A stretch of 64,000 nt of DNA, taken from the NCBI GenBank assembly GCA_903813345.2, contig CAIIXF020000005.1, positions 30,631,375-30,695,374 on the forward strand, given 5' to 3'. This DNA is from Owenia fusiformis. Lineage: Eukaryota; Annelida; Polychaeta; Sabellida; Oweniidae. The translations under genes were made by a program, and so were the position numbers. The notes under the pieces are model-generated. The model worked only from the letters and a program-made list of their open reading frames with translations. It searched no databases and was not told the origin of the DNA. Of this stretch, positions 23,001-29,000 are shown piece by piece (position 1 is the stretch's first letter; every line of letters begins with the position of its first letter).

Positions 23001-26000
23001 TAGGTGACGGGCACTAAATATGGCGATCATTGGTATATTTATTCCACTAATGAAGTAATGTTGCACGATCTCTGGGACCCGAATTCATTTTACATGCTTG
23101 CAAGATAGGCGAAACTTGCGAGTTGACTCGAGTTATAGCTAGCTCGCGAGTTCAAATAGATTGCGAGTTTCTAGAGGACAACTCGAGCCAATGTATAGGC
23201 AGCTCTGACGAGCTGTACTCGAGTTACTGACTCGGGAGTTACACCTCTAGTAGCCACACCTCTGGTTCAACTAATCAGAGATGCAAGTATATAATTTAAT
23301 GCAGCCCAGGTAGATCAACATGACATTCAATTTCCAGGGTTCCCTATCATTGTATTTAATGAAAAAGGTTGTTTGAGCAATAACTTAGCTTTACAATTCA
23401 TTAAGTTAGATCCTCCCTATATCGTGTCTTGAATGTCAAGCTACAATTGATGGTTTCAAAGTTCATTTTTATGACACTCTCTGAACCAGTTTATGGTCTG
23501 TTTTAAAGGTATAAATATTGTTTAAGAGAAGTTTAAGAGAGTTTTGCACAAAGAGGCTTATGCAAATGAAACAGACTAAGAGGCTTAAAGACTTTTTTTT
23601 GCCATTTGCCAAAAAAGAACAATTTATATTGCAGTTTCTACAATAAGCTTGAATTTCGTATATTTTTTTTATTGTATTTAAACAATTTGCACCCCCCACA
23701 CACACACTGAAAGCTGGCTACGCCCCTGAGATATCTGAGATATAATATTAACCAGGCCTTTTATTTTGTTTTTATTATATCATATGCATGAAAATATTGC
23801 AATTTGAATTCAGCCTTCATTGTATGTATTTCCAGCGCTATGCCCGAACTTAGTGATGGCCCCTACTGTAATAGTTATGGTGGGACTCCCAGCCAGAGGG
23901 AAAACTTACATCTCAAAGAAATTGGCCCGTTACTTGAATTGGATTGGAATTAATACAAGGGGTAAGCTATAGATGGCTCCATATGCACTGATATGTATTG
24001 CTATTTATAATTATAAATTTATCTCATAGCGTGCTTTGTTTTCCATTGAGTTTAGTTGAATTGCATTGAATCAATAGTAAAAAGATTGACGTCAAGTTTT
24101 AATTTCTATTTAGCTCGCATGAACTTATTGATTTTAAGAATTTATTTCATTGTTCGATGTTCATTTGTGTTTTACAGTATATATTATGATTACATACGTA
24201 GATATTTATCTAAAATAACATTGATTATTAACTATCAAAGCATAAGGATTTGATTTAAAACCTTACAATTCTATATAATATACTTTATATTATTTTTGGA
24301 AGAATTTATTGGGTGACCTGATATGGACTCAACAAATGGTTTTAAATTCAGAATATTGGCTATTGAGAACACAGATCAGCTGTAAACTTATATCAGGTCA
24401 CCTCAGTGCAGATGCTATGTATATTTTATATATATATAATATTTACATGTTGTTTCACGTTCAAGGAGAATATGCCCGATAAGATATCATAAAAGCTTTT
24501 GAAGGACTTGTTATTAACATTAATACCATTTGGACCATAAATAAATGAGTAGTCGATTTTTCTATCACCATTTCCAAACCATGGTGGTTTGAAAGCCCAT
24601 AGTTTCCAATATTATATAGATATATATCCCCTAAAATTTGTATATTTCAGATTTTGTATACTCTCATCCACTGAAATTTATTTTTAAGATGGGGATTCCT
24701 CACTTCAGCAAATCCATCACTCATTCATTTATGGTCCAACTGTGGCATATTTTGTTCAAGATGAAAAAATCTTCCAAAGTTTAATTTTTTCCTTTGAGCA
24801 TACCCTTCCTTATTTGTCCTATTGATTACTATTCAATGGGTGTACCTAGATCAATGACCTGAATCTAGTACTAAATAACATATTATGACTTATTATGACT
24901 TCAACCAAATCTAAAGCCCCAGCCCTGTCATTTGTATGCTAATTTTGTAAAGTAAAATAAAGAAACCATAAAACATAAAATCTAAAACGAATCCAAATCC
25001 AATATTTTGTTTATTTTTGGGAATGAGAAGTGAGTCATGTTGCCCAGGTGATGAAGAATGACTGATATTGTACTTAACCATGGCAACATCTTAACAACAA
25101 TTTTGCAACCTTTAGCATTTAGATGTTATACCTCCTCTAGGGCAAAGATCTGGGGAAGGTCAACGTCGCTCAAATGATCATACAGATGCGTAAACAACAC
25201 CTTCTACGCACCTTGGATGCTATACCTATCAGCCGTAGATGTCGTAAATATCACTTCAACGTTCAACAAATGCAATTGCATACCCTTACTTAAGTCAACA
25301 CGATAACTCCAGATTTTTTTATTTAAAAATTGAGCTCTCATAAATGAAGAGCAAGAAAGCTCAAATGAATACAAAAGGGTGTGCAAAATTATGAAGAACC
25401 CAACCCCCCCCCTCCCCTTTCCCCGATATGGCGTACAAAAACAAGCTCATATCTTTGCTTGTATATTTGTTATTGGCATTTTAAGCCAAAAATAATGTTC
25501 ACTTTACTCAAAAATGTTTATACCCCCCTCGCTTATAGATTTCCAGATCCAAGGCTGCAGAATGACGAAGAATTATCAGTTGGTTATTTGTCTATCTCTG
25601 TATGGCTATTGATTCCATGCGATCTTTCACTTGTAGTCTTCAATGTTGGAGAATATCGTAGACAAGCCACTTCAGACACCCTTGAAGATTTCTTCAACCC
25701 TCATAACCCAAAGGCAGAAGCTGTGAGAAAGCAAGTACCATAGCAGTAACTGCTATTTACCTAGTTATTAATGTATAGATACTGTATAGATACTAAATAC
25801 AGGGTGTTTCTAAAGTATTGCATGGTTTCAGTGTCGTTATTTTTATAATACTGCTTTACTTGTGAATCACCTTGTAGCTTAGCTTGAAATTATGGACTGA
25901 ATACACTTAAACATGAAACTGAAAAATGAAAATGATATAAATGATGATCGCTATCTGTCGCTTGCTCGATCATATACTTTTGTGTTCAAACAGCAATTTC

Positions 26001-29000
26001 AAGCTAGTCAAAATAGTATTATATATTAGTATAAAGTTTCTAAGTTTTAGGTGTATGGTGTCTTGTTCTGCCGTGCATAATTACAGTATATATGCATGCT
26101 TCTAATTATTCACCAAACCTGCGTTTTGAAAATTCTCACCTCGTTTATTCTCATCTTTTCTTTCCTCTTTTGTTTGATTTTCTGACCACGTCAGAATCAT
26201 GAAGCTTGATGTTCTGTCACTTGAATTAGGGGAGACTGGGGTAAGACGGATCTGCCCCGTGATCTGTTTTGCCCCTGGTTTATAAACAGCAGAGATATGA
26301 TGTAACGATTTTTTTCGATGTTGTTTGAATATAACTACAGTAGTTAAATCTGTCCAATATTCACTTTATTTGCTCTATTACTCAAATATAGTTTGTTCTT
26401 TGGTTCCATGTTTTCTTCTATGTTATCGGCTTAGGCAAACATTCACCCAAATTGATTCTTAGATCTACCCATAAAGCATATTTTCCTCCCCAATGCATCT
26501 AGTGATCCAAATTCAAGAGATTTTCAATTCATAGGCAACCATAGAAATATCCATTTTAGTTCAAGGATTGCGATTCCCTAAATTCATCCTAAGCACCGTT
26601 GATTTATTTACCATATTAATCATTGATACTCAGCTATATTTATTTTCATACTCAACCATTTCATTTTATATTACAGTACTCTGCGATTATGTGCTTGTTC
26701 ACCTGATCAACCATCTGCATTTGTACAGATCCTGTGCATGAGCTATGTATCATACATGTACATGTACATGTATGCTATATGTGCTTCTTCAAACCCTGCT
26801 TTGTTGGCCATTAACCCTTACATTCCCGAATGCTTGAGTTTATCGTAAAATTAAAGTAGTCTATGAATATTTTTATTTAGTGTTTAATGTGGGTGAATAT
26901 AGACGAAGTGCCACCGAGGCTTACAAGAACAATGACTTTTTCCGGGCTGATAACAAAGAAGCTATGGCTCTTAGAAAGTAAGAATTCCCAAGACTTTTGG
27001 AACACCCTTTACTCTTCTTCATACTATTTTTATTATTCTTCTTCAGTCTCATTAAAGTTGTTTGTGGAGTATGTAAATGAATTTAAATATAGCTTTTCTT
27101 AGATCAGGAACTGGCAAAACTATTTTTCAAATGAATCTAGGCAATTGATTCTGAATACCATATTCCTTTTAGAAAGTACAAGATGCTCTTCTAATATTAT
27201 CATGTTCCAAGCTCGTATGAAATTTTGACATGATTGCTAATTGGTGATAGAACATTAACTCCCATATATCTGTTGGTTTTATTTGGTTCCTTTTCACTTC
27301 AATATCATTAAGTAGAAGGAATATGGTACTATAATTGTAACTAAAAAGGCTCTGTTAGTTAGTTTAATAGAGAATAAGATTAAATTATAAACTATGCATG
27401 GATTATTAGAGACCCCATGGTTCCCTTTTTAAGTCCTGTGTGCATCATGGGGAGGATAAACCTTGTGTGACGCTAACATGTGTGTTGTTCTCGTTTGCTG
27501 AATTATTTAATGCATATAAATGTAAATGTTATTGAAGCCTATATTTTAAGCCTTTGGCTATGCTTATATAAGGTGTTCAGTATATTTATCATATTTATCT
27601 GTTGTCTATAAAATTATCTGCATGCTAAAGAACAATCAGAAGAAAGGGCTATTCTCGGTTTGGAGAACAAAGTTAATCACTCTAATTGAGCGTTACCCCT
27701 GCTTCGGACAAATTTGATTTTTTTTCATAATATAGATTTGAATAGTCATAATTTAATTGGGTTGATATTTCTAGATTTTTCATAAAAAATCATTAGCGCA
27801 GTACACTGATAAACTTCTTTCTCCAAATCGAGACTTATATTTTATTGAATCAGTCTACTGCACGTTACCCCTGTTCGGACAATTGTGATATTTTTACATC
27901 TTGTAGTTTTAAATGTATTCTTTTGAATATTTATATAATAAATATTTATAATTGTGTTCTTAATATATTTTGAATTGTTTAGAGTTAACGATCTTACAGA
28001 TATTGTTGAAATAGATGGCATTAATTGTAAAATTAATTTGAAAATATTGAAAGACCAGACATAAGAATAGTAGTTGTTTATATCAAAAGACAAGGTCATT
28101 TCAAGATAATGTCAGACTAAATCAGGTCAAGGTCATATACTGCATGAAGCTCTTGTTTGAGATCACATTTATATTTTAAGGTCAAAGCTCTGGTTTTACT
28201 TCAAGGTCTGCCAGCCTGGCTTATTATATTTCCTCCATTTACCTTGTATTTTGTTTGCCGCATGTTTACAACATTTTCTTGCACAAGGACATGTATTATA
28301 CCTGATCCTGGTCATCATTTGAATATCTTATGGAACGAAATAGATGAAGATCAAAAAATATTAATCAAGTTTTCTGTTGACTTTTCCATTCATGAAAAGC
28401 AATTAAAATGAGCCCTGCATGATTATACTTTTACCTACATACATACTCATGTATATTCAGAAAAATCCTAGAAACAACAATGATATGACTGTACAGACTG
28501 CTTCATTGGGGAGTGAGGACCTTAACTGGCTAGCTCCTCAATCTATAGCACACTACACAATTGTAATCATGTACATGTTAAAATAGTTAATATGTCTGTT
28601 TTTAGGAAGTGTGCCCAGGCTGCCTTAGAAGATATGTGTAGGTGGCTACAGAATGAAGAGGGGGAAGTCGGGGTAGGTACACAAGTTACATACAAAATAT
28701 TTTCAATGGGAATATGAAGAAAAATCATGATACAGTAAAACCTGTCAAAGTAGAACCCCTTTGGTACCTCTTGAAGGCATTCCACTCGGGAGGTGTTTCA
28801 CTTTTCGAGGTTCATTTAACATTCAGTCAATTGGTCTTGGGACTCTGAAAAGTGTTCAAATAACAGGTGTTCCACCTCTAGAGGTGTTCCATTTAACAGG
28901 TGTTCACTGTACTTCATATTCTGCCTCTTCCGTGTTGTTAACATTCATATCAATTACAAGCTCCAGTTAAAAATCAGAGAAATCAAATATTGAAACAGTG

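Follow-up and report, generated by a model that had tools for sequence, protein, structure and literature searches.

The PFKFB enzymes (PFK-2/FBPase-2) set the level of fructose-2,6-bisphosphate, a main on-switch of glycolysis. Vertebrate PFKFB1-4 are the same bifunctional enzyme as the one considered here, and human PFKFB3 among them has a segment homologous to the one that is the subject of this work. The variants reported for human PFKFB3 differ in their N- and C-terminal exons, the inner exons being drawn as conserved apart from a 50-bp insert (exon 7) (PMC8263283). Skipped-exon events (PMC9523697) and two spliced transcripts (PMC6873903) have also been described for vertebrate PFKFB3, but the accessible portions of those reports do not place them in the exon discussed below, and the literature matches listed, judged by title or the start of the abstract and with most subscription journals outside their scope, include no report of alternative exons for the sugar pocket of PFKFB. 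In PKM, another control enzyme of glycolysis, exons 9 and 10 are reported to be mutually exclusive (PMC3498831). The present analysis concerns a PFKFB gene in a stretch of animal DNA of 64,000 nucleotides (the window), in which the exon for the sugar pocket is present in two adjacent versions, 3A and 3B. We consider it probable that these are a functional, mutually exclusive pair in a lophotrochozoan PFKFB, which arose by an old tandem duplication and of which both members have been kept by selection; the use of 3A, the splice choice, and its effect are inferred from the sequence.

The joined exons of the gene match the Pfam families PF01591 and PF00300 with 325.3 and 147 bits, respectively, when 3B is combined with C2, and with 312.9 and 145.6 bits when 3A is combined with C1 (C1 and C2 being two versions of a C-terminal exon, discussed below). 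The gene is PFKFB, with a 6PF2K domain followed by a histidine phosphatase domain (Table 1). A search of the 498-Mb genome with PF01591 gave four matches, each of them an exon of this gene, and one PFKFB locus was found, although it should be noted that a missing match in such a search is no proof of absence.

Exons 3A (94 nt) and 3B (97 nt) are adjacent, homologous, and of the same phases. Recomputation bears out the original prediction on their reading frames: each has entry phase 1 and exit phase 2, and either exon alone, spliced from 23961 to 28606, reads in frame, whereas the two together place TAA as the third codon across their junction (reading ...AVRNV and then stop), and the omission of both gives a frameshift and an early stop. 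As judged from these translations, double inclusion and double skipping are unproductive. The stop two codons past the junction would also suit a poison exon, the use of which together with 3B leads to decay of the message and to less PFKFB, the 3A protein itself being irrelevant. However, a poison exon requires no conserved protein, whereas 3A has accumulated many synonymous changes yet retains VFNVGEYRR, and it agrees with the profile of the family; we regard this explanation as very unlikely.

Taken alone, 3A matches PF01591 with an E value of 3.6e-4 and 20.4 bits (the curated Pfam cut-off being 27), and 3B with 3.7e-8 and 33.4 bits; a genome-wide search with 3A as the query matched two places, 3A and 3B. 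The PF01591 match, the result of this search, and the codon comparison described below rule out 3A as a chance match, and identity at 56 of 96 nt, the unmatched codon of 3B being left out, rules out a duplication in the assembly. No retrocopy recording a spliced 3A message is present among the genome matches to PF01591 and to the 3A query. Another conceivable role for this sequence is that it is read from an alternative start inside the upstream intron, to give a kinase-dead protein that lacks the P-loop. The 3A frame is open for 124 codons (25369-25743) and includes an in-frame ATG, but this is probably a matter of chance; open frames of such length are no rarity here (36 kb contains 856 stop-to-stop frames of 25 codons or more, and several exceed 100), and the acceptor of 3A lies at the exact position of the 3B acceptor and has the same phase. 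Such a use of 3A appears highly improbable.

Comparison of the two exons bears on whether 3A has been maintained as protein. The two exons align over 32 codons; 19 of them specify an identical amino acid, with a synonymous difference at 10 of the 19 (NG86 dN of 0.385, with dS not finite). Neutral decay that keeps 19 residues while accumulating 10 synonymous changes has a probability of at most about 3e-4 in the direction from 3B to 3A and at most about 4e-4 in the reverse direction, over 10 distances. On a profile built from bacterial PFK-2 segments, 3A and 3B score 36.9 and 37.0 bits, respectively. This profile contains 27 segments from 29 loci (L005 is cut by a contig end and L026 falls outside the search expression), of which L018 and L019 have an identical segment. 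When the tails of 3A and 3B were shuffled, 200 times each, no shuffle reached the score of its own exon, the maximum being 27.1 bits, and among 3000 neutral simulations, 1042 were about as diverged as is observed and none of those 1042 reached 36.9 bits. Because of the codon pattern, the profile fit, and the outcome of these simulations, we conclude that 3A, as far as can be read from its sequence, has been under purifying selection as a protein through most of its history.

Inhibitors directed at the fructose 6-phosphate (Fru-6-P) pocket of human PFKFB3 are reported to contact Arg74, Arg75, and Arg98 (PMC3177832). All three residues lie inside this exon (the human numbering carries an offset of one, inferred from Thr48), and both GEYRR and RK are identical in 3A and 3B, a point that the original prediction did not raise. 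The earlier proposal that splicing chooses between two versions of the sugar site thus stands insofar as two alternative exons cover the site, but the pocket arginines are the same in each and it is the linker between them that is exchanged. In 3B, ten residues separate RR from FF, which is followed by RADN, whereas 3A has nine residues and then NPHN; human PFKFB3 has RPDN at the same position. The ten-residue spacing is found in 27 of 27 bacterial segments, and FF[DN]PxN, in the style of 3A, in 26 of 27, but the search expression imposed the FF and the following Asn, with the Pro free and spacings of 7 to 16 allowed. The resemblance of 3A to plant enzymes that had been suggested is not borne out: the one plant PFK-2 segment considered presumably reads FFRADN, like 3B, and it is the 26 bacterial segments that are like 3A. 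Our reading is that 3A is a specialised version.

Long PFK-2-like genes are present in bacteria (L002-L004 and L006-L030), three of the records being titled Myxococcales or Deltaproteobacteria. In three of these genes, similarity to the animal enzyme extends from residue 11 as far as residue 401 or beyond, with 47-48% identity in the best segment, and in the phylum of one such bacterium, 63 of 282 genomes pass the PF01591 cut-off. Two scans of viral contigs found no relative.

The donor of 3A, which the original prediction did not remark on, is GC instead of GT (AAA/GCAAGTA). In this donor, AAAGCAAGT, 7 of 9 consensus positions are kept, and the corresponding acceptor at exon 4 is AG. Use of the GT that lies four bases past the GC (CAA/GTACCA) would shift the frame and lead to a stop in exon 4, and 3A therefore needs the GC donor. 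In a set of 12 donors scored for pairing with the 5' end of U1, from which the exon 1 donor was left out, 3A is the weakest (−1.1 kcal/mol) and 3B the next (−4.5 kcal/mol), the other ten ranging from −5.1 to −11.5 kcal/mol. The acceptor of 3A has pyrimidines at 14 of 20 positions, and only 1 of the 13 acceptors compared is richer. In human and mouse, about 0.8% of the donors of protein-coding genes are GC, and GC-AG introns are described as a working class (PMC7242645). A weak donor on an unusual exon is what would be expected of a regulated exon, but it might also be found in a dying one. A scan for inverted repeats gave 27 imperfect ones, the longest among the matches listed (25 of the 27) being 33 nt at 85%, in one genome and without a control. 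Docking and selector pairing of the Dscam type is not claimed here; the arm near the 3A acceptor (25606-25623, with 24060-24077) matches at 16 of 18 positions, which is near chance by a hand estimate.

In the two introns that follow 3A, the sense strand carries seven copies of the RBFOX motif, TGCATG, and the antisense strand carries none. Shuffled introns contain it 1.08 times on average and reach seven in 1 of 5000 cases, and among overlapping intervals of equal size across the 64 kb, seven copies are present in 1 of 245 on the sense strand (this one) and in 0 of 245 on the antisense strand. By the usual position rule for RBFOX, sites placed as they are here would favour 3A and disfavour 3B.

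It should be recognized that several observations weigh against a working, regulated 3A. The match of 3A to animal proteins is weaker than that of 3B, with 110.7 versus 124.6 bits to the structure chain 4d4j and 20.4 versus 33.4 bits to PF01591, and on the bacterial profile both exons score lower than human PFKFB3 (40.7 bits) and lower than the presumed plant PFK-2 segment (44.7 bits). Working GC donors usually have a strong flank, which the 3A donor, with A at position −1, does not. The hexamer TGCATG was chosen by us, eight other strings also being looked at; it ranks third of the 1661 hexamers present in the two introns, with two ranking higher, is in excess on the sense strand of the gene as a whole (18 versus 7.35 expected from 60 shuffles), is not enriched over both strands of the window (46 versus 41.9), and has four of its seven intronic sites downstream of 3B. 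These points include some that would be expected if 3A had been lost recently, after long use and with the GC donor as the first damage, so that an exon that was once spliced in through a GT donor is now skipped. A dead exon would account for a GC where GT is usual, for U1 pairing weaker than at any other of the 12 donors, and for an animal-family score below that of 3B, and one genome cannot date such a loss. However, 3A contains no stop or frameshift, its acceptor is intact, its fit to the bacterial profile equals that of 3B, and GC-AG introns are known to work (PMC7242645). A recently dead 3A is in our judgment unlikely, and a functional pair of alternative exons is preferred.

A second exon of the gene, at the end of the phosphatase domain, is also duplicated, which the original prediction likewise did not remark on. 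Exon 11 can be spliced to C1 or to C2 without a change of phase, and each of the four pairings of 3A or 3B with C1 or C2 stays open through the C exon. C2, taken together with exons 10-11, gives 147.7 bits to the PFKFB2 chain 5htk; C1, a diverged version, gives 115.5 bits to that chain. A genome search with C2 as the query matched C2 and C1 alone. Over 40 codons compared between them, the amino acid is identical at 21, with a synonymous difference at 15 of the 21, for which neutral decay has a probability of at most about 1e-5. C1 appears to be an alternative last exon that would give a protein without a C-terminal tail; candidate polyadenylation signals past its stop are ATTAAA at 36608 (226 nt) and AATAAA at 36866 (484 nt), in DNA that is AT-rich, where such strings may arise by chance. 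A motif search for the tail exons of C2 gave nothing convincing. Joint control of 3A/3B and C1/C2 is a guess. The C1/C2 pair is less surprising than 3A/3B because alternative C termini are known in human PFKFB3, where they are varied by alternative exons (PMC8263283).

The steps by which the 3A/3B pair would operate can be outlined as follows. An old tandem duplication would have produced 3A and 3B, both then being retained under selection. 3B would be the default exon, and 3A, which pairs poorly with U1, would require an activator, most likely a protein of the RBFOX type bound downstream of 3A and upstream of 3B. Messages with both exons or with neither have early stops and would be removed by nonsense-mediated decay, and because of this removal, exclusivity would be possible without a steric block. 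The swap would retain the pocket arginines and remodel the linker, making it one residue shorter and changing R-A-D-N to N-P-H-N, and the changed linker would most likely alter the affinity for Fru-6-P or the balance between kinase and phosphatase. The set point of glycolysis would then differ in some tissue or condition, such as muscle, nerve, or low oxygen, and C1/C2 may switch in concert with 3A/3B.

Table 1. Features of the PFKFB gene, with positions given in the window
Feature	Position	Strand	Remarks
PFKFB exon 1, first coding	20013..20085	+	inferred; donor CAG/GTTTGT; frame joins exon 2
PFKFB exon 2, P-loop, exit phase 1, ending ACAAGGG	23836..23961	+	
Alternative exon 3A, 94 nt	25637..25730	+	acceptor TTGTAG, GC donor AAA/GCAAGTA
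TGCATG	25819..25824	+	+89 from 3A donor
TGCATG	26093	+	+363 from 3A donor
TGCATG	26735	+	−146 from 3B acceptor
Alternative exon 3B, 97 nt, animal-type	26881..26977	+	donor AAA/GTAAGA
TGCATG, four sites downstream of 3B	27395, 27619, 28141, 28416	+	
PFKFB exon 4, common to 3A and 3B forms	28606..28672	+	acceptor TTTTTAG
PFKFB exon 5, VFDATNTTR	30430..30564	+	
PFKFB exon 6	31321..31504	+	
PFKFB exon 7, bisphosphatase domain start, RHGE	31873..32018	+	
PFKFB exon 8	34110..34256	+	
PFKFB exon 9	34683..34787	+	
PFKFB exon 10	35112..35153	+	
PFKFB exon 11, HQAV, exit phase 1	35324..35411	+	donor CAG/GTTTGT
C1, alternative bisphosphatase C-terminal exon, ending in TGA	36258..36382	+	
TGCATG	38776..38781	+	15 to 10 nt upstream of C2, within polypyrimidine tract
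C2, animal-type version of C1 exon	38791..38918	+	donor AAG/GTGAGT; expected to run on to tail exons

Elsewhere in the window, the minus strand has an open frame of 1207 codons (55286-58909) with long repeats made up of AETTEEKP-like and RPETPSRPKTGEK units; its final residues, CTII, may be an end of the prenylation type. A further open frame of 291 codons (51405-52280) has no Pfam match at an E value of 0.001.

The same genome also contains a duplicated exon of coq-2, a gene of quinone synthesis. The known coq-2 exons 6e and 6a differ by changes of Phe to Leu and Ala to Ser, and 6e is reported only in rhodoquinone-making helminths, annelids, and molluscs (PMC7434440). On another contig, at the locus L033 (G000:C2:21738000-21743200), two tandem coq-2 exons are found, the first with TLNW...YSHQ and the second with TFNW...YAHQ, which suggests that they are the rhodoquinone-type splice pair, the first having the Leu and Ser of coq-2e and the second the Phe and Ala of coq-2a. 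A search of the genome with the pattern of miR-1994, which is not known outside lophotrochozoans, gave two exact copies, and the reversed control gave none; a search for mitochondrial COX1 gave no match. Taken together, the coq-2 pair and miR-1994 make an annelid, a mollusc, or one of their kin the most likely source of the DNA, and a facultative anaerobe. A broader and rather doubtful conjecture would join these genes: PFKFB would be a two-position switch in which binding of an RBFOX-type protein turns on 3A and blocks 3B and C2, so that the resulting 3A+C1 enzyme has an altered sugar pocket and lacks the regulatory tail, and, together with coq-2e, one splicing programme would reset both the quinone pool and the flux through glycolysis when this facultatively anaerobic animal has no oxygen.

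Among known systems, PKM exons 9 and 10 resemble 3A and 3B in being mutually exclusive exons of a control enzyme of glycolysis, but they belong to a different enzyme and affect a different site; the GC donor is a feature of 3A, and the PFKFB pair is known from sequence alone. The choice between PKM exons 9 and 10 is controlled by hnRNP proteins. The coq-2 exons 6a and 6e are likewise mutually exclusive exons that remodel the core of an enzyme, and in both genes here, the unusual version is the upstream one. However, the Caenorhabditis elegans coq-2 exons are of equal length (134 nt) and have a tested effect on quinone synthesis (PMC7434440), whereas 3A and 3B differ by one codon and their effect is predicted. 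In C. elegans let-2, a weak GC donor is reported to be essential for regulated alternative splicing (PMC7242645), and 3A is similar in having such a donor, although let-2 is a collagen gene and the role of GC has been shown there but is predicted for 3A. PFKFB here differs from human PFKFB3 in that an inner exon, that of the sugar pocket, is doubled, and in that C1 alters part of the phosphatase domain itself. A natural pair of enzyme forms that differ in the linker between the pocket arginines would be well suited to asking how the linker sets affinity, and the exon choice is a candidate means by which facultatively anaerobic animals may change their glycolytic rate. Vertebrates vary PFKFB through four genes and end exons, whereas here it is apparently the sugar pocket that is varied by splicing, which likewise varies the proteins encoded by PKM and coq-2.

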